The notes under the pieces were generated by a model. That model was given only the letters and a program-made list of their open reading frames with translations. It did not search any database and was not told the DNA's origin. A stretch of DNA of 64,000 nt from Malus domestica (taxonomy: Eukaryota > Streptophyta > Magnoliopsida > Rosales > Rosaceae). Below, piece after piece: positions 1 through 51,223 of this stretch (the first letter of the stretch is position 1; each line of letters begins with the position of its first letter). The stretch covers positions 29,169,001-29,233,000 of the forward strand of contig NC_091671.1 in assembly GCF_042453785.1 (NCBI RefSeq). The letters run 5' to 3'. The translations under genes and the position numbers were made by a program.

Positions 1-1458
1 AGAAAAGACAAAAAACAGAGGGTTAAACGATGAGTGACGCATGGCCAAAATGGGTAAAACCGAAATTTTGCTGTACCAAGCCAACAACAGAACATGGGAG
101 TGAGAAGAAACAAAGGGTATTTCCACCATTTCACTGTTTACGAACAGTGAAAAATAGTGTCGTCCTAACTGAGTTTTAGTATATAGATAATGTCTCCCAC
201 AAAAGGTGAAGACGAATGCTCCAAACGAGCCCTCAGACTTGTAAGGTGTCAGACCAAGTAGAAAGCATTTGCGACAAAAAAAAATTGGCAATTTAGTTAC
301 TCGTATAATGTGTCAGACATGTGTATCTCCTATGAAAGATGCATGTGGGAGTCCAAGATAGTAGATATAGCTTCATTTAGTGCGTTCACGACAAACTTAA
401 TAATAAACGGACTTACTCTTATAATTAGACAGATGTGAGATGCTAGATAAAGTAGACATCTGTATCTCTTATAAATTAGGCTGCTCATTATATGGCTTAG
501 CCAAACTCTTTCTCTTCTTAGTGTAAAAATATCGATGTACTAAAAAAAAAATTACTCATAAAATTTGACAAATTTAAAGTGTTAGACGAAATAGAAACTG
601 CATATCTCGGAAAAAAAAAACACAAAAAAAAACATACGTGCACGTCGAAGACAGTAAACAGCTCCAATCGGTACATTCACGGTATAGAAATGGCAATGGC
701 ATAATTGTCTTTCCACAAAGTTCCATTTTAGCTGGATGCTTTTGGATTTCTCATGATTGTTCCATAGAACTAAGGTCCAAAATATGGAAGAAAGTCAGAA
801 ACACAACTCTACCGCTCAATCGATTATGTTCCCCTTAATCCAAGTTTCATGGCCACATATCTTTTTGGCTATAAAATGAAAAACCTTTATGTTGTAACAT
901 GAATCAAATTTCCATTTCATCCGAGAAAAGCCTTATTTTTCTCAAGAATGCCTATCATTTGAACCAATGAGGTTAATCGGTATTTATTTGACACTTGTGT
1001 AAATAATAGGTCGAATTTGAGTAGTCAAATTCTTTTGCTTCTTGACGTTCTCTCCATGGGCATTGAAATTATTTCAATTTCTTGACTTCCCATTTATTTG
1101 ACACAACAGAGAGCGAAAGTATTCCGATTTCTACTTCTCCGTGATTGACAAGAACTATCTGATTTTGCTTGTCACTCACGGCAAGGCTAATATATACTTT
1201 ATACATGGTCCAAAGAAGGCATCCTTATTCTTGGTCGTCGCCTCGATGGCGTATACTAATTTTAACACAAATTTAGAACAAGTTGATCGCACATTCCTTC
1301 ATTGACGATAACCTTGCAGCTTCTCTTTACCGACTCAGTAGACACGCAGCTTCTCTTCTCTCGGAATTCAATAGGGGAAGGATGACACGAACAAACTTCA
1401 TCGCGCAGTGGAACAAAAGCTTTCCTTATTTTACCTAAACTGGTGTGGAGGACGCATC
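1..1458. other. AT-rich flank, no gene recognised
   Basis: This is the 3' flank of the RNase H-MATH gene. It has no convincing open frame. Positions about 1120-1310 are a diverged copy of about 7020-7255: both contain a stretch close to 'gtcgcctc.atgg.gtat' followed by a shared 'gaacaagttg' block. I do not recognise the parent sequence. Confidence 0.5.
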
Positions 1459-4400
1459 CTAATGGTCCTTGACAATGGGACCGTTAAGAGGGCTATCAGT
1501 AGGCTCGGTGCAAACCTGCTTGGAACTTGGTGCATCCTGTGGTAGGCAGCCCCCTAGAACAAGTGCAGCTTTACAACCTTTTTGGTCTTCTAAAAGCTTA
1601 ATTTCAGACTTATGGACTACAACCTTGGCCTCAATTATACACATGTCATTCACAAGATATCCTTCACGGTCGTTGTAAAACTCGCTTAGAGGAATTAAAG
1701 ACGCGAAGCCCGATTCACTTTCCCTTTTAGTGAAAACATGTCCAGCATCTGCAAAGTCCAAATATTCATGATCACAATAGAAGCATAACAATTTCTAATA
1801 TAGAAATAAAAATAAGGGGTAGCTCGTTACATAGAGTACTTAAAAATAAGTAACGGAAACAAAAACAGTTAGTCCTAGAGCATTAGATCCAAGAATAAAA
1901 GACTTCCACGATCAGCGAATGTAAGACTCAAGGTCAAAACAATCGAATTTCAATTGCTTCAATCCCGCAGAAAGAGATTGAAGGTCCAGAATTTAACTAT
2001 CTATTTTAGCTACTTATTTCAACTGCTTAACAAACACACTGGTTGCCTATAATTATATTCCAAAAACAAACGTTGTGCAGAGCAAACCCAAGTACATACT
2101 CACCTCACCTTTAGCTAACATTTGAGGCCAGACTACCCAAATCGGTAAAAAGATATTATTTTCAATAAATTGGGGTGTAAGATTCAATATTGATTTAGTA
2201 ATATGTGGTAATGTACCTAAACAAAGGGCCAAAGTCAAAACTCATTGTAAAACTTGATTTCAATGAAAAAACCATATTCTCCAAGGATGAAAATCTATCC
2301 CTACCTTAAACTAAACGGGTTTTATCACAGGAATATTTACTAAATAGAAGCTAAATACTCAATTGCCATAACTTCAAGTAAATTTGAACAGTTGGGCTTT
2401 CAACGGTAATCACCATTTTAGACATGAAAAGTTATACTGTCACTCCTAGGTGATTTACTATACTAATTAATAGCAGGTAAACTATCAACCATGCTGCAGA
2501 TAAGGTATATTTGCAATTGAGTATTTAGCAGAAGAAAGATATCCAGCATCTCAACCTTCAGCTGCACCATGTTAATTAAACAATCATGGCTCATGCACGC
2601 CCTTTTCATTTTCAAAGGGTCTAAGCCAACCAGCCAGAAATGCAGACATAGAAATTTGGTTTAATTTTTTACAGTTAAAAGGAAAACAAGCTTCCGTTGT
2701 CAGAGGTCGTTAAATATAAGATATAATTTTCAGACTCCAAACTGGAAATCCAAGCAGTGATAACACATTGAAGTTTCACATTTAGTAGAGAAAATAGAAT
2801 AATACGAAACCTAGCAGTAATATTTGACGGTTCCTGGATATTCTGAGGAAATGAAGGGAGAATAAAGAAAGAGAACATGACCTTAATTGTCTTCAGGACC
2901 CGGGGAAATTACCATTTGAATGTTTCCTAAAGGGCGACCCGAAATACAGCAAAAATAATATTGAACAATAAGATGTTCCTCAAGTTCTATGATTTTCTTC
3001 AAGGGAGATCTCCCAATAGTGGAAAGTATTGCTAGCATACTACTTCCGTGCTAAACCTAATTAATCTTTTGAACGAGAGATACAAAATTACCTATTGCCT
3101 TTCGTTTATCTACTTTCAGTTCCATATATAGTAAAGTTCAATAAAAAGTCGAGAAGGCAGTCGGGCATTGATAGTAAGCGTGAGACTAAATCAAAGAAAA
3201 ACCTCCATGACAGGACACAGCAACGACTAGTTCCCTTCGATAATTTAGCTTTACCCTACAAATTATAAACTAACATGGCAAGAGACAAAAACAAGGATGA
3301 ATGTGAAATAAGCAACAGGAACATAAAAACAACGTACCCTTTGTTATTGACTTGCTGCTCTGAAGTTGATTGACGACACTCAAGCTGAAGTGCGCATATC
3401 TAGCCCACCCTTTTGGCAATGTTGAAGAACCAGTAACATCCAGATAGACTGACAAGTAGCCTACGGTTTTCTTCCCACGTGGATACATAAGGATTCGCCT
3501 GATAGAACCAAGACAGGTGGAAAACCATAAATAGCACAATGCAAAAAGAAAAATTTAAGCTTGTGGATGGTACGAGACAATAAAATACCATTCAAAACAA
3601 CCGATGACGTAGACATCAGAGAAATGCTTGACGGCATTTAACTTAGAGAAATTGTCAATTTTCCATGTGAATGTCACAGATGCAGCATCATCCTTGTGAA
3701 TATTCAGTTCCTCCAATTTCTTTACTCTTCTACAAACTCAGAGTAACAATAACATGTCACCGTAACACTAAATACCATACAACAAAAACTAAAAACATAA
3801 GTGTGCAACCCGCAACAAACCTGCATTCTATAACTGTGGGAAGAAGAAACCTGGGCTGAGCCACCCTACAGATATCCTGAACCAGAACAGCCTCGCAGCC
3901 AGGCGGCGGAGCATCGAAATAATGGCACCCCAACTCCAATGTCAGCCCAAAATTGGCCAAAAAATCAGCCACGCTGTTTTTTTGCCGGTACACATGCTGC
4001 AGAGTGTAGCTTTGGATTTGGTCAAGCAGATTCAGGCAATTCCTAATCAGATTTTGGCTATTCGTAATCTGATTCAGGCACTTATTAATCAACTTAAACT
4101 GAGGGTGTTTCGGATACAACTGAACCGGGCTGAACACGAGAGTCACCGCCATGGCTGAGTCGGTTTCCACCTCAATTGGGACCCACCCAGAATTCCAGGC
4201 AAGTTCCAGGCCTCTGTACAATGCCCAGACCTCAGCCTCAATGGGTTTCTTGCCCGTTCCCAGATTTTCAGCAAACCCACGCAGCCATTCTCCGTCCTGA
4301 TTTCTGATCACGCCGCCGCCTGCTATGCACCCTGATCCGCTGCGGTAAGTTCCGTCGACGTTGAGCTTGTACCAGCCATGTTGGGGGAAGCTCCAGCACA

Positions 4401-4597
4401 AAAGCACCTCCTGCTTGTTTTTATGCTTTTTCTTTGTGCTGGGCGTAAATAGAAGAAAACCCATAAGTTTAAAGGTCTAAGCATTAAAGATGAAACAAGA
4501 GAATCAGAGAGATTGATCGAGAGATGAACCTTCCCATGGACGATTCCGATAACTCCGGCTCGGAACCAGACTCACTCTGCAACTGCAACTCAGTCAT
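1459..4597 (-). CDS. RNase H-like (RVT_3) plus MATH domain fusion protein, 5 exons
   Basis: Model on the minus strand: exons 4597-4530, 4438-3851, 3729-3589, 3498-3338 and 1748-1459, all with GT-AG borders, joining to 415 codons plus stop. Residues 1-22 are acidic. Residues about 45-185 are an RNase H fold of the RVT_3 type with its four acidic residues present: D51 (NVDGT), E92 (AEVWAL), D116 (ETDSAM) and D181 (NSVADFLA). Residues about 237-367 form a MATH domain, starting VTFTWKIDNFSKLNAVKHF and passing through WRILMYPRGKK, LSVYLDVTGSS, FSLSVVNQ and GYLVNDMCIIEAKV. This resembles the MATH domains of plant UBP12/13 and of MATH/coiled-coil proteins. MATH domains bind protein partners, often in ubiquitin pathways; RVT_3 domains usually derive from LINEs. 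The second exon is 588 nt and phase 2 at both ends, so skipping it keeps the frame and leaves a 219-aa MATH-only protein. Intron 4 is 1.6 kb. The borders were read by eye. A separate RNase H relic lying in intron 1 of a MATH gene is the alternative. Confidence 0.72.
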
Positions 4598-9153: not shown

Positions 9154-10185
9154 ATGCATTGCTTTCTTCTTCCCAATAATTTTTACAACGATCTAAACCG
9201 AATGGTGGCTGCATTCTGGTGGAACGGGGTTGATGATTCCAAGAAGATTCATTGGCTTTCTTGGGAGAAAATATGTGCTCCTAAGTGGGAGGGTGGCTTG
9301 GGTTTCAGAAATATGCATGCTTTTAACCTTAGTCTGTTGACGAAACAGGGGTGGAGATTGATTTATGAGCATCACTCCCTGGTGGCATGAACTTTGAAGG
9401 CAAAGTATTACCCCCAATGGATCTTTTATGAAGGCTAAGGTTAAAAATAATGCTTCGTATGGTTGGAGGAGCATTTGTGCAGCGAGACCAGTTATTGCTC
9501 GAGGCTCCCGTTGGCGGGTTGGTACTGGTAATGAGATTAAAATTTGGGAGGATCCTTGGATTCCAATTCCTTCTCGATTCAGGATATTCTCAACAAAACT
9601 AATGGGCTGCAACATTACTCTTGCCAACCGACTGATTTGCCAGCAGTCACACATCTGGAATTTCCTGATTCTGAAGTCCATATTTTCTGAATGGGAAGTT
9701 GATGCTATTGTGTCTATGCCATTGAGTATTCCCAAACCTGAGGACAAGCTTACTTGGCACTTTGATAAGAAGGGTAAATTTTCGGTTAAAAGTGCTTATC
9801 AGATTGCGTGGAGATGGCAAAGTAGTGGTGAAGTGGCGGCTTCTTCATCAGATCCCAACACATCCGCTGATCTCTGGAAGAAAATATGGGCAGCGAGGAT
9901 CCCTCCCAAAGTAAAGCTATGTGCATGGAGGTTTTGCCGTGACATTATCCCTTCAAGGGCAAATCTGAATATGCACCATATCAATACCGAACTGTCATGT
10001 GTTCTATGAAATGGGCATGTGGAATCCTCCATTCATCTGATCAAGGATTGCTGCTATGCCTCTTGTGCGTGGTTATCTACTGCCATCGGGAAACCTCCCT
10101 CGGGAGGGCAGTGTTCATCTGTCATGGCCGAATGGGGTTTTTCTTGGCTTCCACCCTCAGCCCATCAAACTTTGATCTCTGCCTT
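9154..10185 (+). pseudogene. LINE reverse transcriptase C-terminus and zf-RVT region, broken
   Basis: Two open stretches, 9154-9390 and 9428-10009, carry the thumb/connection part of an L1-type reverse transcriptase and its zinc-binding zf-RVT domain. They are separated by a TGA at about 9388 and a small frameshift near 9415. A further stop falls near 10008, inside the zinc-binding part. The line continues to the Copia junction at 10185, where reading resumes beyond 15848. No N-terminal endonuclease or palm domain is present. It cannot encode an active enzyme. Confidence 0.85.
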
Positions 10186-10989
10186 TGTTGTGCTAGGATA
10201 GCACCAAACCTTATGGAACCAACTCAAGCTAACCCACAGGAAATATATCAAATGGAATGCAAGAACAAAATATAAAAGACACTAAGATTTTAACGAGGTT
10301 CCTCAACAATCAATGTAACTGGAGTATGTCCTCAATCAGTGTAATTGGAGTACGTCCTCGGAGCAGTAGGAGCTCACCTAATAATCCACTATCAACCAAA
10401 TGGAAGTTTACAAAGTGTTGGCAATCTCACAACCCAAAAAACCCAATACAACCAATAGCTCTCACACACCAAAGAAACAAATAAAGAAAGAAATATAGTG
10501 ATTAATTTCTTCTCTATACAAAACTCAAAGCTATTACAACAACAACTACCTTGGTGGATGATTACTAACCAAAGAAAAGATCACCTTTTTCTTCTCTTCA
10601 AAATGGGGTTGCTGCCTTTTATTTTTCTGCTTCTCTCTCGGTTTCTTTCATTACCAAATGCAACAAGTGGGAGCATAACAACCAATTCTCTCCCTTTCTT
10701 TATTTGCTACTCTATGTTTTTCTGCAGCCATTCCCGTGACTTTTTACATATGCCAAAGAAAAAAACTTTAGACAAAATGCCCTTTTTTTCTCCCCAAAAC
10801 AAGGAAGAAACATAATCATGTTGTCTTTTTTTTTCTTTTGATTTGTTTAATAGCCAAAAGTTTTTTTTGTTTTGTTCTCCACTTGGCCACTTATTCAACA
10901 ATCTCCACCTTGGCCAAGTTCCGAAAAACGCAATGATAAGCCAACCAACACAATTAACACACAACATCACTCCCAAACACTAGCAAGAG

Positions 10990-12864
10990 AACAACTCATG
11001 CCGAGCCAAATGCTCCAAAACTCCTACTGTTCAACGCATTCTTTATATAGGCAAAATGTGAGCCAAGTTCAAGCAATGAACAAGTTTGGCTACACCAACA
11101 ACCTTAGTCAACATATCAGCGAGGTTGTCTTTAGTTGGAATCTTCTGGAGAATGATTTCCCCTTCACCAACAATTTCATGAACAAAGTGATAACGCACAT
11201 CTATGTGCTTGGTCCTCGCATGATGAACCTGATACTTAGCCAAATAAATGGCACTCTAACTATCACAATGTACCTCCACCTGCTTCTGATGAACCCCCAA
11301 ATCTCTAATCAGCCCATGTATCCAAATGGCCTCCTTTATAGCTTCAGCAACTGTCATATATTCAGCCTCTGTAGTAGATAAGGCAACATACGACTGCAAA
11401 ATGGACCTCCAACAAACTGGCCCTTTAGCCATAGTAAACATATAGCCTGTAGTAGACTTCCTTCCATCTAGATCACTTGCATAATCTGAATCAACATAAC
11501 CAACTGCAAAATGGCCAATGCTAGAGTCATCTCTCTCAAAGCATAAACCAACATCTCGAGTACCATGGAGATACCTCAATATCCACTTAGCTACTTGCCA
11601 ATGCTCTTTACCTGGATTATGCATATATCGATTCACCATGCCAACTGCATGAGCAATATCCGGTCTAGAGCATACCATTGCATACATCAAACTACCAACC
11701 AAATTTGCATATGGTATATTTTTCATTTGCAGTTTCTTTTTATCAGTTTTAGAACATTGTAGAGAACTCAATTTAAAATGAGGAGCCAAAGGGGTACTAA
11801 CCGGTTTGGTTGAATCATGAACTCCAAACTTCCGAATCAACTTCTCAAGGTATTGTCTTTGATTCAAATTGACCAAACCCTTCTCTCTATCTCTAGTGAT
11901 CTCCATGCCAAGGATCTTCTTCGCTTCACCAAGATCCTTCATCTCAAACGCATTCTTCATTTGCTTCTTTAATTTTTCAATCTCTTCAACATTCTTTGAT
12001 GCAATCAACATATCATCAACATATATCAACAAATAAATGAAAGACCCATCTTGCAACTTTTTGAAGTACACACTATGATCATATTGACTTCTAGAATAAT
12101 TTTGGCCTTTCATAAATTTATCAAACCTCAAATACCATTGCCTTGGAGATTGCTTCAAGCCATAAAGTGATTTCTTCAATTTGCAAAACAAATTCTCCTT
12201 CCCTTTCACTATATACCCATCCGGTTGACACATATAAATCTCTTCATTCAAATCACCATGTAGGAAAGCCGTCTTCACATCAAGTTGCTCAAGTTCAAGA
12301 TCATACTGTGCAATAAGAGCTAACATAATGCGAATTGAGGAGTGTTTCACAACCGGAGAAAAGATTTCATTGTAGTCAATGCCCTCATTTTGTACATACC
12401 CTTTAGCAACTAATCTTGCTTTGAATCTCACATTGCTTTTCTCATCAGCATCTTCCTTCTTGGCATACACCCATTTGCAACCGATAGCTTTCTTGCCCTT
12501 AGGCAATTTAGCTAACTCCCAAGTCTTGTTCTTCAAGAGAGAATTCATCTCATCACCCATGCCATTGCACCACCTCTCCTTTTCTTCACTCTCAATAGCT
12601 TCCTCAAAATTGGATGGAATCTCATCAGTGATAATAGGAAGAGCAAAAGAAACAGTCACTATACCGAGCTGGCTTGGTAATTTGTCTCTTTCCTCTGTTC
12701 TTGGCAATAGACTCTTGAGGTGAAACTTCCTCTTCAACTTGAATAGAATCTTCAAGTTCAACTTGTTCAACATCCTCATGGTCTCCAACTTCTTCACTTG
12801 TAGTGGCTTCAACATCAGCGAAAATAGGATTTGAAGTACCAAAGGCAACTTTCTCAAGCTCCAC
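10990..12864 (-). pseudogene. Copia reverse transcriptase and RNase H, broken
   Basis: Reverse transcriptase motifs include ARLVAKGYVQ, LDVKTAFLHGDLNEEIYM, SLYGLKQSPRQWY and the active-site YVDDM. RNase H follows, with GYVDSDYASDLDGRKSTTGY and STTEAEYM. A frameshift near 12660 separates the short upstream linker from the polymerase. A TAG at 11256-11258 cuts the last RNase H part, which continues to about 11043 (HHARTKHIDVRYHF). Confidence 0.9.
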
Positions 12865-13911
12865 CTATTGGACATCTTTCACATTCTTCTCAGAGACTTT
12901 GTACATACTTTCTTCATCAAATGTCACATCTCTGCTGATTACAAGTTTTTTCATCTCTGGGCACCACAACCTGTAACCTTTGACACCACTACTAAAACCA
13001 AGAAAGATAGCCTTTTTGGCTCTAGGATCAAGTTTATTTTCAGTCACATGAAAATAAGCAGGTGAACCAAAAATACGGATATAGTCATAATCAGAAGAAG
13101 GTTTTCTAGTCCATACCTCCATTGGTGTCTTACCCTGAACAGCAGCTGAGGGTAACCGGTTGATGATGTGACATGCATAATTAACTGCCTCTGCCCAAAA
13201 TGACTTGCTTAAACCCGACTGAGACAACATACATCTAACCTTCTCAAGCAAGGTTCGATTCAATCTTTCTGCAACTCCATTTTGTTGTGGAGTTCCCTTA
13301 ACACTGAAATGTCTTACAATCCTTTCTTCTTTGCAAACTTTCAAGAAATGGTCGGATGTGTATTCACCACCATTATCCGATCTCAAAACCTTAATCTTTC
13401 TCCCAGTCTGGTTCTCAACCATTTTCTTCCAACCCAAGAAAATGCTTAATACCTCACTCTTGTGCTTCATAGTGTAGACCTAAGACATTCTTGAATAATC
13501 ATTAACAAAGGTCACGAACCAATGTCTACCACTCAAAGAGGGAGTCTTGGTAGGACCCCAAACATCCAAATGCACATAATCAAGAATGCCATTCATCTGA
13601 TGTACAACAGTACCAAACTTCACTCTAGTTTGTTTCCCCAAGACACAATGCTCGCAGAAATCAAGCTTACAAGTCGTGGCACATTTTAGAAGACCTTGTT
13701 TCACAAGCCCTTGTAGAGCTTTCTCACCGGCATGACCTAATCTCATATGCCATAGTCTAGTAGTATCAGAATCGGATGTGCCCATATTTTCTGAGACTAC
13801 AGATGCTTCACCTATCACAGTGCTTCCTTGCAATAAATACAAATGGCCACATCGAGGAGCTTTCATCACAACAAGTGCACCATAAGTAACTTTCAATGTC
13901 TATCCATCTGA
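12865..13911 (-). pseudogene. Copia GAG-pre-integrase and integrase, broken
   Basis: This contains a GAG-pre-integrase motif (RLWHMRLGHAGEKAL with HCVLGKQ) and the integrase core with LRSDNGGEYTS and GVAERLNRTLLEKVRCMLS, which hold the second aspartate and the glutamate of the D,D-35-E triad. The chain is cut by TAG codons at 13900-13902, 13480-13482 and 12865-12867. Otherwise it reads in one frame. Confidence 0.88.
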
Positions 13912-13980
13912 ATGAAACCTGAAGCCCTTGGATTCCAAAGTACCCAAAGAAATAAGATTTTTCTTCAAATTCGGTACATA

Positions 13981-15847: not shown

Positions 15848-16438
15848 ATGGTTTGGTGGGCCATCTGGGGGGCTTGGAATGCTATGCTTTGGAACGGAAA
15901 ATCGAAAAAACCTGATCATGTTGTTGCCAGAGCTATTAGCTAGTGGATGGACTTTTAGGGATCGGTGGCAGCCACCAGCTATAGTTCCACCTCTCATATC
16001 GTTTCCCGTTGGATTAGACCCCAGCTGAACCATATCAAAATCAATGTCGATGGTGCGTGGAGGGAGTCTGTGAAATTGGGTGGTGTAGGAATTGTGATCC
16101 GGGACCATCGGGGTATGTTTGTAGCAGCAAGATTTGCTATTTTTAAGTACGTTTCCTTGCCCCTCTATATCGAAGCTCTTGCGGTAAGGGATGGGTTGTT
16201 GTTGGCAGTTCAAAGGCGATTTCTTAATATTGTTATTGAGAGTGATGCACTCCAGATTGTTTCAGTTCTTCATTGTGAGCTTCTAAATGACTCCCCCATC
16301 AGGATCATCGTGGAAGATTCAAAGGTCTTGCTGTCTTTGATCACTGGAGCAACTATGGCCCATACTCGCCCCCAAAACAATGAAGGTGCTCACCGTTTGG
16401 CACGTTATGTTGTTGCAAGTTTGGTTTCTTGTTCATGA
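15848..16438 (+). pseudogene. LINE RNase H domain (RVT_3), 3' piece beyond the Copia insertion
   Basis: From about 15965 the frame reads HIKINVDGAWRES, GGVGIVIRDHRGMF, YIEALAVRDGLLLA and VIESDALQIV, the first three acidic sites of RVT_3 RNase H, then NNEGAHRLARYVV at the end. Between 15848 and 15965 the same LINE is readable in another frame (WGAWNAMLWNG). Together with 8979-10185 it forms the 3' half of one L1-type element. The A-rich tail follows at about 16560-16587. Confidence 0.85.
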
Positions 16439-16606: not shown

Positions 16607-17718
16607 TGGGTGCAAGTAAAGTTGCCAGAAGCATCATAAGTAGTTTTCATGAGCTTTTTAACATTTATAGGATGGTTAACAGGGTTCCCAACATATTCTA
16701 GACAACATGACCACTAGCATTTGGGCCTAATAATATACTCCAGTATGTGGGCCAGTATAGTATAAGCAATATGTGGATCCATGGTCCATAAATTTGGGCA
16801 TGAAAAAGAAAAAATAAACCCAAAGAAATTCCATGACTCGAAAACACTTCTCAAGTTTTTAAGGGAACAACGTTGAAAGTATTTTTGGTTGGCAAATGAT
16901 TGAAAAAGTCACTCTCGGAGAAGTTTACAATGAGTCAGTAGGTTTCAATCTTTTCACGTTCGTATCAATTTGTGTATTTTTTCTGTTTGACTTTATGATC
17001 CTTCGTTAAATTGATGACATGACAAGCGTGTGAATTATTTCTGAGTTGACGTGGAAGCTACACCCAAAGTACAACCAATCATACAATTTGGTCTCAATGG
17101 TGCAAAATTTGCTTGTATACAGCCTAGAAACAGATTCCACATCCACCAAATCATTACTTTAACGTACAATCATAACATTAAATAAACTGAAGACATAAAT
17201 TAACAAGACTTTGAAACTTTATAGTGCAATTTGAGAAAATTAAAATCCTACTACTCATTTTGAAAATCTGAAAATCACCTAAAACGCAGAAAGCGTAAAT
17301 ACAACGACACCAACAAAATTGTTTTTCCTATATCTCTCTCTAGCCTTGTTTAATCCTTCAATCCTTTTACCTTTCTCATTGGGGTTTAAGAATTAAACAA
17401 TTATGACAAGGCCAGAGTCATGATCTATATTCACCTTTTTGTACCATCCCTAAACCAGAATCTCCAACTCATGACTCAATTATCTATTAGGTTTCAGATT
17501 CAGCTACAAATTAGGTCATTCCTCCTATTTTCCTTACCAGTTCCTCTACCATTGACTCTCCCACATGCAACAACCCCAACAGAAGTTAAACCTCCAACAA
17601 ACTTCATCAACCTCCACTTCTACGAGGTTCTTCCATTTCATATATATTCAAACCATCCCTACCAACAACCTGCACCATTTTTATACTCTAAACCGGTGAG
17701 TTCGAGAGAAGAGAAAAT
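16607..17718. other. Upstream flank of the GDSL gene
   Basis: No gene is recognised. It should hold the GDSL promoter and 5' UTR. A 100-codon open frame (17420-17722) overlaps the GDSL start in another frame and is probably a chance frame in pyrimidine-rich leader sequence. Confidence 0.4.
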
Positions 17719-19219
17719 ATGATAGTTAAGGCCACTCAATGGCTCCTCCTAGGTCATCTCCTAGTGCAGGTTTCTATGGTGTGTGCCAGAGTTCCAGCAA
17801 TCATTGTGTTTGGAGACTCTACTGTGGATGCAGGGAACAACAACCAGATATCGACAGTCCTAAAGAGCAACTTTGAACCCTACGGTCACAATTTCTATGG
17901 AGGCTTGGCTACTGGCCGGTTTTCCAACGGTAGGCTTGCAACGGACTTCCTTTCTGAAGGTTTTATGATCAAGCCGACCATACCTGCATACTTGGATCCT
18001 GCCTATAGCATTTCGGATTTTGCCACCGGAGTTTGCTTTGCCTCTGCCGGAACTGGCTATGATAATGCTACTTCTGATGTGCTAGTAAGTCGCATTATGA
18101 CTCAACCTAGTACGCCTAACATGCGGCAATGACCTTCGGGCCAAATAACATCTCCTTCCCCCCTCAGGTATGGGGTGGAATGGCGAGTTCGTAGGTTCAA
18201 TACCTGATTGATGCATGAGTGAATCAACAAATTGAAAACAGAACAAGGAAAACTAATCTAAAAACATAAAATAGTTGTTTCCAACAATTTTCAGAAACTC
18301 AGTTAATTCTGAGTTCTAATCATTTCAATCATCTTATTGCTTTCGTGTCGTTTCAAATCAGAATAGTTATACAAAGTTAAAATAAAGACATACAGGCTTG
18401 TTTTGTTTACAGCTGCTAAACTAATCTTGCAGTCTGTGATACCTCTTTGGAAAGAACTGGAGTACTATAAGGAATACCAGAAGAAGCTGCGACGCTATCT
18501 AGGCAACGACAAAGCTAACGAGGTTCTGGGAGAAGCACTTTACCTGATTAGTATAGGAACTAATGATTTTCTAGAAAACTACTTTGTATTTTCACGCAGA
18601 CGATCTCAGTTTTCCATTGAGGAGTACCAAAACTTTCTACTAGGAATTGCTGGAAATTTCATCAGAGAGCTTTACCAGCTTGGAGCTCGGAAGATGGTTA
18701 TAAGCGGCCTTCCTCCAATGGGTTGCGTGCCACTGGAGAGAACTACAAATATCATTTCTGGGGGTGTTTGTAATGAGAAGTACAATGATGTGGCTAGGAG
18801 TTTCAACAAGAAGTTGCAGGGATTGGTTGAAAAGCTCAAGAAGGAACTGGTTAAATTTCAACTTGTTCTTTCAGACCCATACGATATTGTCTCAAAAATC
18901 ATTCGAAACCCAGCCTTTTTTGGTGAGTTCTATGGTCTTGTCTTCACTATGATTCCAATTCTATTGTCACTTACAGATTTTGTGCATGACATAAAAAACA
19001 ATCCGGTAAATTTCCTATTTTGCAGGATTTGAAAATGTAGCAAAAGCCTGCTGCGGCACAGGAATGTTCGAGATGAGCTATCTGTGTAATAAGATAAACC
19101 CGTTCACATGTTCAGATCCAAATAAATATGTATTCTGGGATGCCTTCCACCCCACAGAGAAAACAAATGCCATTGTTGCAGATCATGTATTTAAAACTGA
19201 CCTGGTTCAATTTCTATGA
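17719..19219 (+). CDS. GDSL-type esterase/lipase, 3 exons
   Basis: Exons 17719-18084, 18433-18922 and 19026-19219 join to 350 codons including stop (349 aa), a normal length for plant GDSL lipases. Residues 1-23 are hydrophobic (WLLLGHLLVQVSMVCA), a secretion signal, so the protein is probably apoplastic. Block I is FGDSTVDAGNN with nucleophile S34; block III is GTNDF at 164-168; block V is DAFHPTEKTN with D324 and H327, so the SGNH catalytic residues are present. CCGTGMFEMSYLCN is a conserved region before block V. The donor GTAAGT at 18085 and both acceptors fit GT-AG and all phases join. The family hydrolyses acyl esters; substrates such as cutin monomers or lipids cannot be told from sequence. 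It resembles the Arabidopsis At2g04570/At2g42990 group. Confidence 0.92.
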
Positions 19220-35280: not shown

Positions 35281-35441
35281 GAGAATTACATACAGTGGTG
35301 AAAACTAATGGAAATATTATATTAGACCAAATATATACGTCTCCTAAATGCACCCTTCAAATTCCAAAACCCTATATTTTCCAAAACTCCATTGGGTTGC
35401 AATAATACACATTCCTACACAGTTGCTGTTGGACTATTGTC

Positions 35442-37922
35442 TCAAGAAATTCCAACTGTTTTACCCAACAACCAAAGAATCAATGATAGCTCAAGCATAA
35501 ATATGGTGTGGAGTGTAGTCCTGTCCAATGTAAATCCATATATAGTAATACCAGCTCTATTATTTTCCAAATATGTCACTGCAACAACAACAAATATTCT
35601 ATATCAACAAATTAAGCGATACAAAAGACTAATGTGTGTATAACATGGGAGGAATTGCACATGACCACTTGCAAGGGAATAAAAAATGTGTCGATAACAT
35701 GTTGTCGCATTTTGTTAACTACAATGTCATCAACACATTATCTACGACTTATCGACAGCTTGCTCTTTATTCAAGAACGACGCCCCTTCCATATATGGTC
35801 AAAATCTCTATGTAAACTATCCTAAAACATTATTTTCTCCATCCCATCATCTAGGGGATTATTGTGATTCCATTCTTGACTATAATTTATGATCAGTGCA
35901 AACTAATCAATGAATAAGAGTTGTTAATGACATGCATATGTGCTATTTAATTAGGCTGGCTTACCTAGAGCTTGTCTCTTTTGATAAGAGATTGTACTAT
36001 ATGCATATGATGGAACAAACTTGGCGTTTTCCAGTTCATCTTGATCATCACTTGCCAAATCACTGTCTGATTCTCTGTCACTACTGGCACCAGAAACCAC
36101 TCGGCCATTCCCCGTCTCATCAGGCGGCGGAGAATCTCCTTCGTTCGCATCAAAGGATTCCAATGTGGCGCAAACGTGCCACTTTGTAGCAAGGCATGTG
36201 ACTGCTTGGGCCTTGTGTGTGATTTTGGTTGCACTGCGCAGTAAGATGAGGACTCCAGTGACTAAAGTTATGGAGCATAACTGCACCAAAAAAATAAAAC
36301 ATCATCACTGAGATTAGTTTTTGTTCATAAAATGATTCTCTGAGGCTGGAAAGTAACCCAGTTGATTATCATCTCTCTCACTCATAACCAAAATAGTCCT
36401 TTTTCTTCTTGAAAAGGAACAGAAAAAACATTAAAACGGATCCTCTGCGGATTCTGAGCTATACAAATCAACACGTGAAAACTGGAAATGAAGGCATACC
36501 GCAAGTTCACCGGATCTATAAACATCAAGATTGGCAGTGGCACTAGACCTGGTTGTGATGAGCAACAAGGAAAATTGGCTGCCCGTGACCAAGATCAATG
36601 ACCATAGGATGAAACCTCGGTATCTATGACTTATGATTGTTAAGTGCCTTCGGATCCTAAGGTGCTCGGACAACACTGACCCGACATCAGATTGCTCTTG
36701 GAACACAGTGGCAAAGTCTTGGAGCCGTAGGATTTGGAGGTAGCATATTAGACGGAACAGAACGCACACGAGAAAAAACACAGTTGTACGATACAACCAC
36801 GAGCACAACTCTAGCGTGCATGCTACCACGTCACTCACGTAAACATTGCCCAGAAAAGGCATTTGCGAGGCTCTAGATGCGTACCACCAAATCTTATATG
36901 CACTCTCCGCGGCAAAGCATGGCATTACAAAGATGCAGAGAATCTTCAATGATCTCTACAAGGAACAACATATGTGTGAGTTCGAGAAACAGAGAAAGAA
37001 GATACAAGACGTACCTACCTTGTTGTCTACTTTTTGCATAGTGGAGTAAAATGTCAAAAGCATTATTCACATTTTACTCCACTATGCGAATAAAAACCCA
37101 ACAACATGTATGTTCTACGTTCAACCGAGCTCATCGAGTCTGCCCAGCCCACATCTATGCAAAATCCTGGTTTCGCCCTAACCACGCTTATTAATTTGAT
37201 TTCTACTCATTGTTTTACATTGAATCAAATTCTGTAGTTTCATAATGTTAAGTTTTGGTGTCATTCGATTCAGTGGTTAGTTTTGTTAGGGTTCCTTAAT
37301 TATTATAGTGATGAATTTCTACATGGTTTCTATTAATATACTGCTTTTCAGATGAGGTGGTTTTGTATCAAATCGTTTTCTTCTAAAAAACTAAACCTAA
37401 TTTAATTTCCATTCTAAGCACAATTCAAATTAGTAAAACAACTTGTGAAAAAAAATACCCATTAGAAAACAAAAATCAATGGAGAATTTGAATTAAATAA
37501 CTCACATTGAGCTGTTGTGTGTATTCCCTCCTGACCGTCTCGCTCTCATTATAAAGCTTATCGAAAAACAAGAACCTCCGGAGCCCAAACTTCCTCACAA
37601 ACCATGACAGGCACAAAAACGACACCGTCGCAACGCTGCTCAAAGACAATTGCACTACACTATCATAAGGCCTCTTGTGCTTGCCATCGCATGATGCACA
37701 TGTGAACACAAAATGGGAAATGGCAGGAACAACGATTGCAAACAAGATGAATATGGACCAAGAAATGCATGCCCTCCATGCATTAGATTGGTCCACACAC
37801 ATCCATCGTACATACGATCTAAAACTCTTTAATTCATCTTGTATGTGTGAAACGCAGCGTCCTAACCCTGTGTTTGTCTTGTTGTTCTGGTTTAACAAGC
37901 CCTCCATGACATCGTTTCTCAT
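35442..37922 (-). CDS. DUF3537 / gustatory-receptor-like membrane protein, copy 1
   Basis: Exons 37922-37506, 36955-36500, 36280-35965 and 35578-35442 join to 442 codons (441 aa). The family is DUF3537, multi-pass proteins distantly related to insect gustatory receptors and annotated in plants as putative ligand-gated channels; their function is unknown. Seen here: a cytosolic-looking N-terminus, a membrane segment near 55-75 (WSIFILFAIVVPAISHFVF), another after SVVQLSLSSVATVSFLCLSW, several in exon 2 (YRTTVFFLVCVLFRLICYL, FILWSLILVTGSQFSLLLI), an acidic loop in exon 3 (DRESDSDLASDDQDELE) and the C-terminal signature GITIYGFTLDRTTLHTIF with a last hydrophobic helix. It lies 2.4 kb from EHD1 on the same strand; Arabidopsis has the same pair (AT3G20290, AT3G20300). 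No break is seen. Confidence 0.9.
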
Positions 37923-38400
37923 ATTGGGGGTTGATGAATTTGGTTTTTAGGTTTGAATTTGTTTTCCAGCTTGAGAAGAACATGATTGGTTTGAGCTATA
38001 TTTAGAAAGTGTTTGTAGAGAAATGTGGAAACAATAGGTTTGTGTTTTGTGAGTGACATGATGTGGAACGATCCATTGTGGATTATATATTGCACGAGGT
38101 CAGTTGATTGTGCGATTTTTCTTTAGAATGTCTTAATTTGTTGGAAGTTTGAATGAAAATAAACTATAAGTTCTTTTGTCCCGCATTGACGAAACAAGGT
38201 TTTTCCAACACCAATTTATAAGGTTATGTAAATAAGATTTAGTAAATTGGATTACACAGAGAAGGTCGGGACTTGGGCTTAGCTATATATTAAACGTCAA
38301 AAGAGGGGCCTTGGGCTTAGGCGAGTTCAAATAAAACATGTTTGGTTTTTATCCTTTAACAGAAACAACATAAAACATAACAACGAAATACCTCATATTT
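37465..38400. repeat. Segmental duplication, source copy
   Basis: Exon 1, the start of intron 1 and about 470 bp of upstream DNA match 42164-43055 over nearly the whole length. Both include 'gagaaatgtggaaacaatag' and 'ggattatatattgcac'. Unit boundaries were judged by eye. Confidence 0.8.
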
Positions 38401-38410
38401 TCTATATCCA

Positions 38411-40683
38411 GTGTTCTAAAAATCGGTTTAGGCGGCGCCTAGGCGCTAGACTGTGGTTTGTGATAGTGATTTTACCAGTTGTAAAACAAGGGTTAAACCA
38501 TAGAAAATTCTTGTAAGAGAACAAGTGTTTGTAGTATAGAATGGCTCAAGTAAGATCAATCTCCTCAGGGACTGATATAAACAATTTACTAGTTTTTGTG
38601 TATTTAACTTAGTTAACTCTAAGAACTACACTAATTCGACAAAATTAAATACTAATGTACATGACTTAAACAAAAATTTAAAATGGGAATTGGCTTATAG
38701 GAATAGTGATCCAGCTAAACAACATAAGTAAATATAGAAACTCAAGATAATACAAATAATTGAAGAAAATTAGATTGACAAGGCGCTAGAGTTCAACCTT
38801 TACCAACAACACTCCTATGTAGCTTTTCCAATTGCTTAAGTAATCGAAAACACACATGCTTTGAAGGTTGGGTTTTCCTTGTGTATGTTTTACTTGTGAC
38901 ATTCAAGATAAAACGCATACCACTACATGCAATTTATCCATGACATTATATAAACATGAGTGATTCATTAATCTTGGTGAAAATCCTTATGTTAAACCAT
39001 GTAATCCCTAAAAGTATGATATTTACCTTAGGAGAAATTACAATCCTCAATCACAAGAAGCATAACCAATTTTAACGTGACATTCATTCAAAATTGTATC
39101 CGATGACTTTTCTAAGTATCCTAATGGTGATTAAGCATCAAGGCACATAGATAATTTAATTCAGTGATTGAAAATATCAAAGCAAACATGTAACAACACT
39201 TAAGCAATTGAAAGAGAAATCTACGTAATCATGTTGAGGCTCATGGCCTCACTCTAGCAAAAGGAAATTAGTTACACATACTTGTTTTAATACATAACGA
39301 TTATCCATTAAAAATCAAGGAAAGAAAGCAACCATTTTTTACAAGATGAGCTCTATGATCATCTTCTCCTCAAAGATAGGAGCATGCTTCTTCTTCTCTT
39401 CAAATTTGGAGTTGCGGCACCCCTTCTGTTTCCTGCTATGTGCTCTCCCTCTGTTTTCTCCCTCTGTTTTCTCCCCATTTTTCTTTTCTTTGCTCTCCCC
39501 TCTGCCGTGTTCTTCACTCTCTGCAAAAAACTCCAATCAGTTTATTCCTCTTCTACCCACCTCTCTATTGCCTTATATTATTAGTCAATGGAATGGGCAG
39601 TTGTGCTCTTCACTTTCTCCTCTCTGCTTTTCTTCTGCTCCAAAGTCCAATGAGTGGAATTAAAAACCCAATTTTCTGCCAATTGTTGATGACAAAGCAT
39701 TTACTTTCTTATTTTATTAGCTAGAGTGGGCATAATTGGCCATAACGTTTGGTTGACCAAAAGTCCTTAGATTTATGAATGAGATGTCCTTAGAAAGCTT
39801 GAAACGTCTACTTTCTTCATTCTTAAACTGGGAACAATTGGCTGGGAATTCTTGAGCTAAAAACTTGATATGATCATCTTCAGTCTCTTGTGAATCAGCT
39901 CCAATTGGAATTACTTAAAACTTTCACTGTTTGCATACTTTTCCACCAAACTCGATCCTGCTGCTCCTAGAAACACAAAATGGTAAAACCATCACACAAA
40001 CTTAAAACTTCCAACTAAACTAGACAAGAAAAGAAATATAAAAGTGAGGAAATATATAGTATAAATATTGGTTCATCAGTTTGCCACCGCAATTAAACCA
40101 AAATCGTTGAAGAAATCGGCAAGGGTATTAAGCGGCGCCTAGACGGGTGCTGGGCAGGCTAGGCGGTCACGCTTTGATAAGAAGTCGATTGCAATGTCTT
40201 TCTTCCATTGCGGTTTGGACGGCTCAACGACGGTCTCAACAATTTCGATCTATAACTGCAGGGTAAAAAAAAAGGCGATTTGCTGGGATGAGAGAGATAA
40301 CCTCGATCTACAATTGCAGAGTTGAAGAAGAGGGACGGCTTGGTTGTGGGGAGAGAGAGAGAGAGGGGGTAACTACAATTGCAGAGAACAAATGGATCGA
40401 CGGTAGGGTAACTAATTAGTTAGGGTTTTTTTTAGTTAGGAACTTAGGTGGCAGTTATTTAAAATTTAGGGACTATTTTTTCTTTAATAAGAAAACAAGC
40501 CCAATTCTTCTTTTAGTGAAAAACAAGGCCCAATAATGATTAAAACAAATGGGCTGACTAAATGTTACAAAATTAACATTAAACGTCCTAAAATTTTACA
40601 CATATACTTAAATCCGCCTAGGCCGCCTAGGCACTAGGCCCCAGCCGACCGCCTAACTAGCGCCTAGCGTCTTTTAGAACCTT
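38411..40683. mobile_element. TIR-type element with GGCGCCTAGG-rich ends, hosting a solo LTR
   Basis: The ends are inverted: the left 'gttctaaaaatcggtttagg' and the right, reversed, 'ggttctaaaagacgctaggc', both followed by GCCTAGGC-type motifs. Without the inserted LTR it is about 650 bp. A CTATATC repeat lies just outside both ends (38403-38409 and about 40689-40695) and may be the target duplication, but the exact termini are unsure. No coding sequence. Confidence 0.5.
38461..40078. mobile_element. Solo LTR, 1.6 kb
   Basis: It starts TGATAGTGATTTTACC and ends TTGGTTCATCA, with a perfect 5-bp duplication GTTTG at 38456-38460 and 40079-40083. It contains no retrotransposon gene. Terminal TGAT...ATCA is shared with the solo LTR at 21316-22815, but the bodies differ. 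It is inserted in the GGCGCCTAGG-rich element. Confidence 0.82.
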
Positions 40684-40725
40684 ATAGACTATATCACTCT
40701 AATTTTTTATTTATTTATAAAGGAT

Positions 40726-42150
40726 TGTTAACGCGAATTTCCTGCGACAAATGAGACAAGAACATGTATACAAAATAATTGTTTGTATTAATGTAAATTT
40801 AGGGTTATAATCTCTTTACAACTTAATCCTCTTATTCAATCTCCGAAATGTAAGGTGTGTAGTGTTGTTGATCCAAATGACTTGATCTTGGATGAATGGA
40901 TATTGTAAGGTTTTGGCTCTTGGCAATGGAGGAACCGGCACGTGTAGGGGTGCTTAGTGGTTCTTCACGGGTTTTACGAAGAATGTGGAGAGCTATCCAA
41001 GTATTCTTGTGTGTTTGGGGAGTTTGAGTGCTTGAGAGCTTCAGAGTTTCAAAGCTTTAGCGTCTGGGCGTGAATGATTTTCCAGACCCTTTTCTTTATC
41101 TTGGAGCCTCCTATTTATAGACTTTCCAAGCCTTGACTACGGATGGATTTAGCCTTGATTGTGGGCTCGATTAATTGACGAAAGAACCAGTACTCGATTT
41201 ATGGGCCGGTTCATGATTTGTCTCCATCAATTAATATTTGATTTAATTAAATTAAAATCAAATAATTTATTTCCGCCAAATGTTGACATGTGTCCTTCTT
41301 GATGACTTGTCCAATTTTGATGAGTCACATCCATGTGTACGATTTTGTGGGACACATGGCGCATGTCACATATGCCCTGGCCTATTAAAACTTTAATACG
41401 TTGGAGAGCATTTATTTCACCGAAATTTCGATGTCTACAAATGCCCCCATTTCAAGGCACGTCGTATGCATGTGTTTGTCAGGTGTAGAATATGTGTTTT
41501 GAAGTCTCTTTGCATAGTGAATGTACTTTGACCACTGTGATTTGAAGTCCTTCAATGTAGATGTCAATTCAAAAGCCGTTGAGGCTTGATCTTGAATTGG
41601 GCTAGAAATTTCTTCAAGGCCTGTAGAGGGTTGGTCTTAAATTAGGCTGAAAGTTTCTTCAAGAGCCATTGAGGCTTGATCTTGAATGAAATTGGACCAC
41701 GAATAGCTTCACGTGGTGAGTGCTCTTCGGCTTTGTTGGAGTTGAATCGGCACATGTAGTTGTGCTTGTTGATTCTCCGCGAGCTTGGTGAAGAACATGA
41801 GTGTTTCTTCTTTGGCCAGAGAGCTTTCTGGTTTCCTCCAAAGGTTTAGCTTTGCTTCATTTCTTTGGAGTTGAATTTGATCCAAGGATGGTTGGCACTT
41901 GATCTTGAATCAGACTTGTCATTTCTTCAAGGGCCGTTGAAACTTAATCTTGAATGAAATGGGACCACGAGGAGTTTCACGCAGTGTGTGGTCTTCAGCT
42001 TTGTTGGGGATGAATCGGCACGTGTATTTGTTGTGCTTGTTGATTATCCACGAGCTTGATGAAGAGCACGATTATTTGAATTTGAATTTGGGTTTGGTTG
42101 TTGTTGTGTCTAGAATTTAGTACTAGACTACCTTCATACCTTTTGTGGGA
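40726..42150 (-). mobile_element. Truncated LTR retrotransposon: 3' LTR plus part of the internal region
   Basis: Read on the minus strand, a purine tract (AAATGGGGGCATT, near 41440-41452) precedes an LTR of 714 bp (40726-41439) that starts TGTAGACATCG and ends GCGTTAACA. The remaining internal part carries tandem diverged modules: 'cttgatcttgaat' recurs, and a block with 'aatcggcac.tgta.ttg' and 'gcttgttgatt.tc' appears near 41700-41810 and 41945-42070. No gag or pol is left. Its right side ends at the duplicated DUF3537 exon-1 block. Confidence 0.6.
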
Positions 42151-42163
42151 TCAAACCAACGTC

Positions 42164-42559
42164 CATTGGAGAATTTGAATTAAATAACTCACACTGAGCT
42201 GTTGTGTGTATTCCCTCCTGACCGTCTCGCTCTCATTATAAAGCTTATCGAAAAACAAGAACCTCCGGAGCCCAAACTTCCTCACAAACCATGACAGGCA
42301 CAGGAACGATACCGTCGCGACGCTACTCAAAGATAATTGCACTACACTAGCATAAGGTCTCTTGTGCTTGCCATCGCATGATGCACATGTGAACACAAAG
42401 TGGAAATGGCAGGAACAACGATTGCAAACAAGATGAATATGGACCAAGAAATGCATGCCCTCCATGCATTAGATTGGTCCACACATATCCATAGTACGTA
42501 AGATCTAAAGCTCTTGTTGTTCGGGTTTAACAAGCCCTCCTTGACATTGTTTCTCATAT
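42164..42559 (-). pseudogene. DUF3537 exon-1 pseudogene
   Basis: It is a copy of exon 1 of the 35442-37922 gene. Compared with it there is an in-frame loss of about 17 codons after MRNNVKEGLLNPNNK, and a one-base loss near 42401 that shifts the frame after FAIVVPAIS. The remaining frame continues HFVFTCASCDGKHKRPY to the exon end. No exons 2-4 follow. About 490 bp of matching upstream DNA (to 43055) came with it, so it is a genomic and not an mRNA-derived copy. Confidence 0.85.
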
Positions 42560-43196
42560 CGGGGTTTGATGAATTTTGTTTTTAGGGTTGAATTTGGTTT
42601 CCAGTTTAAGAAGAACATGATTGGCTTGGGAGTTTTGAGTTATATTTAGAAAGTGTTTGCAGAGAAATGTGGAAACAATAGGTTTGTGTTTTGTGAGTGA
42701 TATGATGTTGTGGAACGACCCATTGTGGATTATATATTGCACAAGGTCAGGTGATTGTGCGATTTTTCTTTAGAATGTCTTTGTTGTAAGTTTGAATGAA
42801 ATTAAACCTAGTTCTTTTGTCCCCCATTGATTAAGGAAGGTTTGCCAACACTAATTTATAAGATTATGTGAATAAGATTTAGTAAATTGGATTGCACGTA
42901 GAGAAGTTCGGGACTTGGGCCTAGCTATATATTAAACGTCAAAAATGGCCTTCGGCTCAGGCGAGTTCAAATAAAACATGTTTGGTTTTCATCCTTTAAC
43001 AAAAACGACACAAAACATAACAACGAAAAACCTCATCTTTTCTCTATCACTCTAATATATTTTTCTTGAGAGAAATACTTGTACATTCGCCAAATTCAAG
43101 TTCCTGGTGCTAAGAATTTGGATTGATAGAGTAGTTTTGGTGGACAGAGCCTAAAGGACTTCAAGAACCCGAATAGAGGTGAAATTCTATCTATAA
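42560..43196. other. Duplicated upstream DNA of the DUF3537 pseudogene, then flank
   Basis: 42560-43055 matches 37923-38400 (the upstream region of copy 1). Beyond it no feature is recognised up to the MITE. Confidence 0.5.
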
Positions 43197-44261: not shown

Positions 44262-45567
44262 CTAATTAGATGCATTCATCAAACTTGTTGCTATTCTATT
44301 TCTTAATGCCTCTATCTCATGTGATCCTTCAACTTGATAATTTTGATATTCATCATTATCATCATCACTACTATCGCTCTCTTCACAAACGTCCCTGGGG
44401 TCATCAAAATGACGATCACGTTTAGAATATCTCCGTATGTAGTTATGAAGAGCCATTGTAGCAATGACAATCTTCACTTGCTTATTGAACAGGTAATTAG
44501 GCATATCCCTTAAAATTGCCCATCTTTTCTTCCATACCCGAAAAGTTTGTTCAATGATGCTCCTAAGAGAAGAATGTCTGTGGTTGAATACCTCTTTATG
44601 ACCCGTTGGTTCGGTACCCCTACAAAAGTCCGGGAGATGATATCTTTCACCTTTATATGGTCCCAAATAACCTCTCATTTGTGGGTACCCCACATCTGAC
44701 AATTGAAAATTTTGTTTTGTATTGTAATAATTATACAAAGCAAGTATGTAAAATGTTATAATAAAAGTATGAAGATTACCATTTGGAGGCTTAAAAAAGT
44801 TTAAATTTGGATTCCGTAGCACGGATAGAAAAACCCTTGTATCAAGTGCAGTGCCTTCCCATCTGGCACAAGCAAATGTGAATTGCATGTCAAAATTACA
44901 TGCAGCCATAACATTTTGAGTTGGTATTCCTTTCCTACCAATGTATGGAACTTGATCCGGAGGTGGTATTGAAGCCTCAACATGCACTCCATCTATGGCA
45001 CCAATACAATCCTAAAAATAATAACATAGAAGAAAACCGTCAACCTACACTTATAGTTTGCAAATAAGTTAGAAGATGAGTCAAACTTTACCTTAAAATA
45101 AGGCATGTATCTTGTATCTCTCCTTATTTATTGGGGAATGCCACGAAACTCTGAATCCATCGGTTTGATAATATCTATTGCCATCTTACATACGATATCC
45201 AACATAGCACCAAAATATCTACTAACAGTCTCACCATAATGTTGAAATCTCTCTTGAGCTAATATATTTTTCACACCATGTCCCAACATATGCAAGAACA
45301 TTCCTAATATTTTAGTTGCATTCATTTTCCTTGAACCTTTCAATCCATAATTAGTTTGCAAGTTATTGGATAATCTACAAAAGATATCTTTGTTCATCTT
45401 AAACATTTTATATCATCGCACATCATTTCCTTGTAGTACTTCCATCAACCAAATATACATGGAGTTTTGTGAACATATTTTAAATAATATGTTTCAACAG
45501 CTCTCGCTACAGCGCATATAATTAGACCATCCTCCAACTCCTCAACATCATCATCAGAGGTGTTCAT
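44262..45567 (-). pseudogene. Harbinger (HARBI1-like) DDE transposase, broken
   Basis: The core 44262-45012 has IGAIDGVHVEASIPP (first D), DVGYPQMRGYLGPYKGERYHL (second D) and RSIIEQTFRVWKKRWAILRD (E), then MALHNYIRR. An intron-like stretch (NLHTFIITF... to about 44702) reads through in frame. The N-terminal exon 45128-45406 ends in a TAA before the exon border. A further stop lies upstream near 45455, after a start that reads MNTSDDDVEELEDGLIICAV. Splicing joins 45012 to the N-terminal exon at a good acceptor (TTTTTAG). The stops make it a pseudogene. Confidence 0.85.
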
Positions 45568-50520: not shown

Positions 50521-51223
50521 ATGGAGTCCGTTGAGTTTTCTTATGTCCTCGTCGATGCAACGAGCGCTGCATTTAATGGCTTCTTTTGTAAGTCAAAATA
50601 TAAGTAGTCATAGATGAGGTTTGCTTTTCCCTGAATTTTTATTTAATATTATGGTGGATGATGTAAACATTTCATTACAAATTTAATAAAAAGCTCTGTC
50701 ATTTGACAAAAAAAACCTCAATTATTACTATCTATTAGAAAATTGACCCAGACCTTTTTTTTCTCCTATGGAGCCATGAGAAAGTCACTGGCGTCAGGTT
50801 AGTACGGTTCTCATGCTGCTGATTTGGCCCCGCACTGATTTAGGAGCTTCTTCTTTAGTATAGAATTCAAAATAACAACAAAAAATAAAGAAGCGGTTGG
50901 GTGAGAACAAGAAGCGGTCGTCGTCCAGCGGCCGAAAACTCCGAATATAGGCCTAGATCGTTTGTACACCGGCCGAGGAATCCCTTGTTCGGCATTTCTC
51001 TGAAGTTTTAGTGAATATGTGGACACAATGATAGTAATAAATAGATAAAGGAAATAGAGGCTCACCAAGAAAAAAATATTCCAAACTATGAAACATAAAA
51101 ATTATAAAAGAGAAAAACGAAAGAAAGAAAATTGAATGAATATACATCCCCAATTGCAGTGCAAAATTCCTCTCCCGGCATGGGCCTAGCAACACAAAGA
51201 CAGTCTGATGTAGGACCCTTCTG
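50521..51223. other. 3' flank of DUF3537 copy 2
   Basis: Non-coding. It should hold the 3' UTR of the minus-strand gene ending at 51224. I see no other feature. Confidence 0.4.

Follow-up and report, generated by a model that had tools for sequence, protein, structure and literature searches.

An intact LINE-type RNase H sequence lies as a candidate exon in the first intron of two neighbouring MATH-domain genes of apple

Results

Organization of gene A and its surroundings

The window, a stretch of 64,000 nucleotides from Malus domestica (C11:29169001-29233000), carries near its beginning a minus-strand gene, here called gene A, in which an RNase H sequence of the RVT_3 family lies between a short first exon and three MATH exons (Table 1). 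The exon coordinates, splice dinucleotides, phases and catalytic residues of the original prediction were all verified, and with them the claim that the RNase H exon is flanked by an acceptor and a GT donor and is in phase 2 at both ends. The acceptor reads ...TTTACGCCCAG and the donor at 3851 reads CAG/GTTTCT (the slash marks the exon end). As had also been proposed, the frame is kept both in a 415-aa fusion that includes the RNase H exon and in a 219-aa MATH form that skips it; both read open, and use of the donor at 3821 would give a fusion of 425 aa in the same frame. The ATG in intron 1a opens a stand-alone RNase H open reading frame of 235 aa, the equivalent of which in a neighbouring copy, gene B, is 233 aa.

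Table 1. Features of gene A, of the rest of the window and of related loci (window positions count from its first nucleotide)
Feature	Sequence	Position	Strand	Remarks
Exon 1, gene A	window	4530..4597	-	68 nt, ATG at 4597, MTELQLQSESGSEPELSESSMG + 2 nt, ending in phase 2
Intron 1a, gene A	window	4439..4529	-	91 nt; contains ATG 4464 in the RNase H frame
RNase H (RVT_3) exon, gene A, as originally predicted	window	3851..4438	-	588 nt, phase 2/2, four catalytic acids
RNase H exon extension, gene A	window	3821..3850	-	30 nt, +10 aa, frame kept, if donor CAG/GTTTGT is used
Intron 1b, gene A	window	3730..3820	-	reaches the MATH-exon acceptor
MATH exon 1, gene A	window	3589..3729	-	profile matches, frame, present in B
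MATH exon 2, gene A	window	3338..3498	-	profile matches, frame, present in B
MATH exon 3 + short tail, stop TAG, gene A	window	1459..1748	-	profile matches, frame
Out-of-frame relic, family C-terminal part (LGKIRKAFVPLRDEVCSCHPS...)	window	1262..1458	-	outside the gene A protein; read by eye
LINE zinc-finger part	window	9398..10009	+	start of 9398-16438
Copia repeats	window	10185 and 15120		300 nt, 97% alike
Copia RVT_2	window	within 12000..12878	-	between the LINE halves
RVT_3 RNase H	window	15959..16438	+	end of 9398-16438
GDSL lipase	window	17692..19032	+	two ORFs
Repeated ORFs with DUF3537	window	~35424..43048 and 51206..54415	-	
DDE_Tnp_4 transposase ORF	window	44262..45011	-	
Exon 1, gene B	C11	29112060-29111993	-	
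Relative D	C11	29107157-29105424		MATH exons
Relative E	C3	26092318-26090747		MATH exons
LINE body beside copy C	G000:C11	29163494-29159236	-	ORF1-like, EN, RT, zinc finger
Full-length LINE relative (L004/L057)	G000:C18	369397-369912		

Elsewhere in the window, the zinc-finger part and the RVT_3 RNase H at 9398-16438 look like two LINE halves split by a Copia element. The repeated DUF3537 frames are apparently tandem gene copies, and the two GDSL lipase frames probably belong to a single gene with two or more exons. Neither tRNAs nor, at the gathering threshold, RNA families were found in the window.

Copies and relatives of gene A

The genome searched was the window's own, of 651 Mb in 19 contigs. 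A protein search with the RNase H query, in which 150 of 1270 candidates were scored, returned only one close match among those listed. This is gene B, 61 kb from gene A on the same strand, which is 92% identical over all 195 residues and has no stops; the remaining listed matches do not exceed 44% identity where they cover most of the query, or 47% over shorter parts. The exons of gene A, namely exon 1, the RNase H exon and three MATH exons, recur in gene B in the same order and frame and are all open; the fusion predicted for B reads open over 374 or 384 aa, according to which donor is used. A DNA search with exon 1 and its intron found only A and B, and one with the RNase H exon and its downstream intron found only A, B and a third copy, C. 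In copy C, what is left of the RNase H covers residues 116-195 at 53% identity and contains stops. MATH exons 1 and 2 of this copy are found about 10 kb from the start of the window, with a stop where MATH exon 2 begins, and MATH exon 3 is probably 35 kb further on. Copy C is a pseudogene.

Two relatives with MATH exons, D and E, have no RNase H match within the 3.0 and 4.5 kb searched. In an exon model made by eye, their first exon ends ATGGAAAC/GT in phase 2 and is followed by a MATH exon in matching phase; intron 1b of gene A, also read by eye, occupies the position of intron 1 of D and E. The 103 MATH matches in the genome cluster on C2, C7, C12 and C14 as well as on C11. When the two lists were compared by eye, no MATH match other than those of A, B and C lay beside a listed RNase H match, a comparison that RNase H copies left unscored could escape. 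Synonymous divergence over the MATH core was 0.17 for A-B, 0.20 for A-C, 0.33 for D-E and 0.57-0.69 when A was compared with E or D. Together with the absence of the RNase H from D and E, these values place the arrival of the domain before the divergence of A, B and C and after the A/B/C and D/E lineages separated, unless D and E have lost it. D and E are perhaps a duplicated-chromosome pair. Homology of the exon 1 and intron flanks of A to those of D and E is not claimed, as the alignments were not significant overall by shuffling: the observed score was reached in 8/200 shuffles for A against D, 154/200 for A against E and 60/200 for B against D, and for the 3' flank of A in 108/200 against D and 11/200 against E.

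Its MATH exons and the relic downstream of them give gene A the look of a shortened gene of the plant MATH plus coiled-coil family, judged by the architecture of that family and by its description in PMC6905379. By eye, the frame of gene A stops just before the family coiled coil; the counterpart of the relic in relative E, LGKIEKAFVPLLDEVCSWHPS, is in frame there. Gene B ends earlier than A by a separate lesion, E continues past the MATH part, and comparison by eye with D and E found no C-terminal coiled coil in the A and B proteins. USP7 uses a D-W pair in its TRAF pocket. In an alignment read by eye, the corresponding residues are E-S in MATH exon 3 of A, E-W in B and D-W in both D and E, suggesting a relaxed or changed MATH function.

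Domains and catalytic residues

The RNase H exon matched the RVT_3 Pfam profile at 91.8 bits in two stretches (cut-off 21.6). Near the break between the stretches lies a repeat at a 21-nt offset, alike at 27/36 positions, which reading of the letters by eye found in A and B and not in C. The MATH_2 profile scored 106.1 bits on the spliced skip form (cut-off 32), compared with 18.6, 35.6 and 31.2 bits for the exon-bearing frames taken singly, a difference that gives good support to the splicing of the MATH exons. The four acidic residues that the original prediction held to be intact are D28, E69, D93 and D158 (numbering of P0001), with H148 as the active-site histidine; all four align with those of the solved RNase H1 structure 4e19, although the match is weak (E 0.2). 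Among 28 other RNase H loci, 26 cover all four acid positions and 15 of those 26 also have the DEDD set, so its presence in gene A is by itself weak evidence. A single-sequence structure model of the RNase H had a mean pLDDT of 32.1.

Splice sites and phase

Sites in the 1.1 kb from 4660 to 3560 (73 GT and 63 AG) were scored with an approximate, untrained plant matrix, to which all of the following ranks refer. The best GT site in gene A was CAG/GTTTGT, with the exon end at 3821; the donor at 3851 ranked 4th and the exon 1 donor AAG/GTTCAT 8th. Of the acceptors, the one at 4438 ranked 4th and the MATH acceptor at 3729 15th, and the top-scoring AG lay inside the RNase H exon. In gene B the two best donors were the exon 1 donor AAG/GTACGT and the equivalent of 3821, and by eye a donor of the 3821 type is present in A, B and C. 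The end at 3851 that was first proposed for the exon does have its AG/GT and phase 2, but the stronger in-frame donor 30 nt downstream makes 3821 the more likely site.

Symmetry of phase is weak evidence when taken alone, because the 7 AG and 16 GT sites that surround the domain form 112 pairs, 12 of which would give a phase-2/2 exon in the RNase H frame. The arrangement nevertheless exceeds chance, since copy B keeps all of it.

Selection on the RNase H and MATH parts

We compared A and B over the RNase H exon, where dN was 0.041, dS 0.131 and dN/dS, the check put forward with the original prediction, 0.31 (bootstrap 0.15-0.63). The differences comprise 15 synonymous and 18 nonsynonymous changes, falling 7, 8 and 18 times on the three codon positions (P 0.012 for third versus other positions). 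With a mutation spectrum derived from the introns the ratio rose to 0.48 and was still below one (P 0.018). A single indel, of 6 nt and in frame, was found where 6.8 would be expected from the introns (P 0.009). The exon has diverged more slowly than introns overall (33/582 versus 202/1796, P 6e-5); against the three short adjacent introns only it was not significantly slower (33/582 versus 24/302, P 0.20). Divergence between A and B is uneven along the gene, and that of the long intron (JC 0.129) equals the dS of the RNase H exon. The lack of stops in A and B is weak evidence, as an RNase H sequence would remain stop-free after 33 neutral changes with a chance of 0.15.

Taken apart, the two halves of the RNase H domain gave ratios of 0.24 (0.03-1.11) and 0.42 (0.17-1.28). 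Over the 30 codons that follow 3851, a ratio of ~1.0 was obtained (2 synonymous and 6 nonsynonymous changes), so constraint seems to fade at the end of the exon. The MATH core had a ratio of 0.30 over 152 codons (a point estimate), from which both the RNase H and the MATH halves seem to be kept; with the tail included the ratio was 0.48 (0.29-0.81). MATH exon 1 alone was indistinguishable from neutral (0.58, 0.13-2.53; 0.82 with the intron spectrum), and exon 1 with its 7 differences was uninformative (0.46, 0.06-2.71). These comparisons argue, with moderate strength, for maintenance of the RNase H exon as protein-coding sequence in A and B.

Origin of the RNase H

A LINE-type retrotransposon origin of the RNase H exon, as first proposed, is supported by its RVT_3 match, by the DEDD residues with their histidine, and by its end block (PPPGC...), which resembles that of the genomic LINE copy L004. 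In a tree of 17 rows the A and B domains form an isolated branch of length 0.77 with support of 98/100. The nearest copies are 42-44% identical to A over most of the domain, and no close donor LINE was found among the genome matches listed. Of the full-length LINE relatives, L004/L057 has the highest identity to the exon (44%). It is located on C18, a contig of 396,947 bases whose length fits the apple mitochondrial genome, and may be an ancient LINE that slowly changing mitochondrial DNA has conserved.

No reverse transcriptase, endonuclease or zinc finger accompanies the RNase H of A and B, and the RNase H part is all that LINE queries match in these genes; about 2 kb upstream of B there is a different LINE. 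The flanks searched for a target-site duplication share no exact word longer than 8 nt, and no poly(A) was seen by eye around the exon. Solo RNase H copies are common in this genome, as 9 of 28 other RNase H loci (L003-L030) have no LINE body on the same strand within 1.5-kb flanks. A search for close relatives in IMG/VR found none.

Beside copy C, a LINE body that lacks its own 3' end leads directly into what remains of the RNase H. Of the DNA relatives of this element, the best two (69% and 68%, among 43 other matches listed) carry an RNase H that is only 27-29% identical to that of A. The element was rejected as a donor for A and B, because in the two relatives examined the RNase H differs; it seems to be of another family and to have been joined to C by a later rearrangement.

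Discussion

From the position of the domain in the intron, the relatedness of the copies and the coding signal, we infer, with somewhat better than even confidence, that gene A encodes a splice-made RNase H-MATH fusion protein. The open RNase H in two neighbouring copies suggests that the plant makes use of the domain. Comparison of the copies shows that a LINE-type RNase H was inserted into the first intron, of phase 2 (as exon 1 of the relatives reads by eye), of a gene of the MATH plus coiled-coil family. It acquired, or brought with it, the flanking splice sites that are seen in the sequence and may now be used. At the level of DNA it became an in-frame exon in the ancestor of A, B and C, and dN/dS below 1 shows, with moderate strength, that A and B still keep it as coding sequence. 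Once spliced and translated, the predicted product of about 425 aa would consist of a 22-aa acidic start, a lysine-rich linker (TKKKHKNK), the DEDD RNase H and the MATH domain. The MATH domain might dock or multimerise the protein and so bring to that site a nuclease acting on RNA in RNA:DNA hybrids, and skipping of the exon would return a MATH protein of ancestral type. A speculative extension, to which we assign a rather low probability, is that a catalytically complete RNase H was recruited into a virus-resistance-type MATH gene as a MATH-guided nuclease. Its targets might be RNA:DNA hybrids formed by reverse-transcribing elements, or R-loops, and exon skipping would switch the gene between a nuclease and a scaffold product.

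Since A and B both lack the coiled coil, decay is the main rival: the RNase H would be a LINE fragment inside an intron of a MATH gene that is being lost, never spliced in, its frame kept open by recent duplication or gene conversion. Several observations fit such a relic, among them the separate loss of the coiled coil in A and B (by eye), the broken state of C, the weak exon 1 donor and low-scoring MATH acceptor in A, the frequency of solo RNase H copies and the appreciable chance that neutral change would have left no stop. The local rate test is also compatible with it, and the uneven divergence between A and B could have come from conversion. On the other hand, the synonymous sites of the RNase H exon have diverged about as far as the long intron but its nonsynonymous sites far less, indels are deficient, and the MATH core has a low ratio of its own; we therefore consider the relic unlikely, though worth serious consideration.

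The same dN/dS would arise if selection acted on the RNase H alone, translated from the ATG in intron 1 of an unspliced or separate transcript and unjoined to MATH. Both copies do have this ATG and an open frame to a stop. Yet the final 30 codons of this frame have a ratio near one (on 8 differences), the exon 1 ATG of an unspliced message would be in another frame with an early stop, and the well-scoring donor at 3821 would be left unexplained, making a stand-alone RNase H improbable. If the LINE upstream of C were instead the donor, A and B would be trimmed versions of that insertion; the same-strand LINE body leads directly into the C remnant, as such a donor would, but the low identity to A of the RNase H in its two best relatives makes this origin scarcely credible. 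The splice-made fusion remains the reading that we favour. It is open to comparison within one genome, in which D and E represent the state before the insertion, A and B carry the coding signature and C is broken. If transcripts confirm it, gene A would be a clear case in which a scaffold gene of a defence family has taken up a retroelement enzyme as an exon, and the activity of that enzyme can be assayed.

Among the RVT_3 'fusions' annotated in plants, many may in our view be artefacts of gene prediction. The original prediction knew of no pairing of RVT_3 with MATH in other plants, and our searches of the open-licence literature (titles and the starts of abstracts of the papers listed) turned up no protein that combines RNase H with MATH. 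Events of this kind are already known, as RVT_3 joined to other plant proteins, namely NLRs, is in print (PMC4759884, PMC10934728). PMC4759884 lists RVT_3 among the domains integrated into plant NLRs, those of Malus domestica included, and PMC10934728 describes soybean SRZ4, a TIR-NBS-LRR-zf-RVT-RVT_3 protein that is antiviral and whose TIR part is sufficient. According to PMC9784723, Copia GAG has been joined to USP7-type domains, once with MATH, in Asteraceae and Rosa. PMC6905379 describes the MATH plus coiled-coil family, with tandem genes in apricot and a link to the restriction of potyvirus movement, and treats its genes as RTM3-like candidates for sharka resistance in apricot.

Compared with the RTM3-like or At3g58210-type MATH plus coiled-coil proteins, with which the MATH exons are shared and whose reading past the MATH part is seen in D and E, genes A and B have gained an RNase H exon in intron 1 and are without the coiled-coil end. 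The RNase H resembles that of L1-type LINEs in its profile match, catalytic set and end block, but in A and B it stands without reverse transcriptase, endonuclease and zinc finger, on an isolated branch. With HadGAG1-type genes the locus has in common a retroelement domain joined to a USP7/MATH-type host protein of plants, whereas the domain there is the GAG of an LTR element and the host partner is another one. Like the RVT_3 NLRs exemplified by SRZ4, gene A would join a retroelement RNase H to a protein of a defence-related family; unlike them, its partner is MATH, and the domain lies on a symmetric exon of its own on which dN/dS has been tested.
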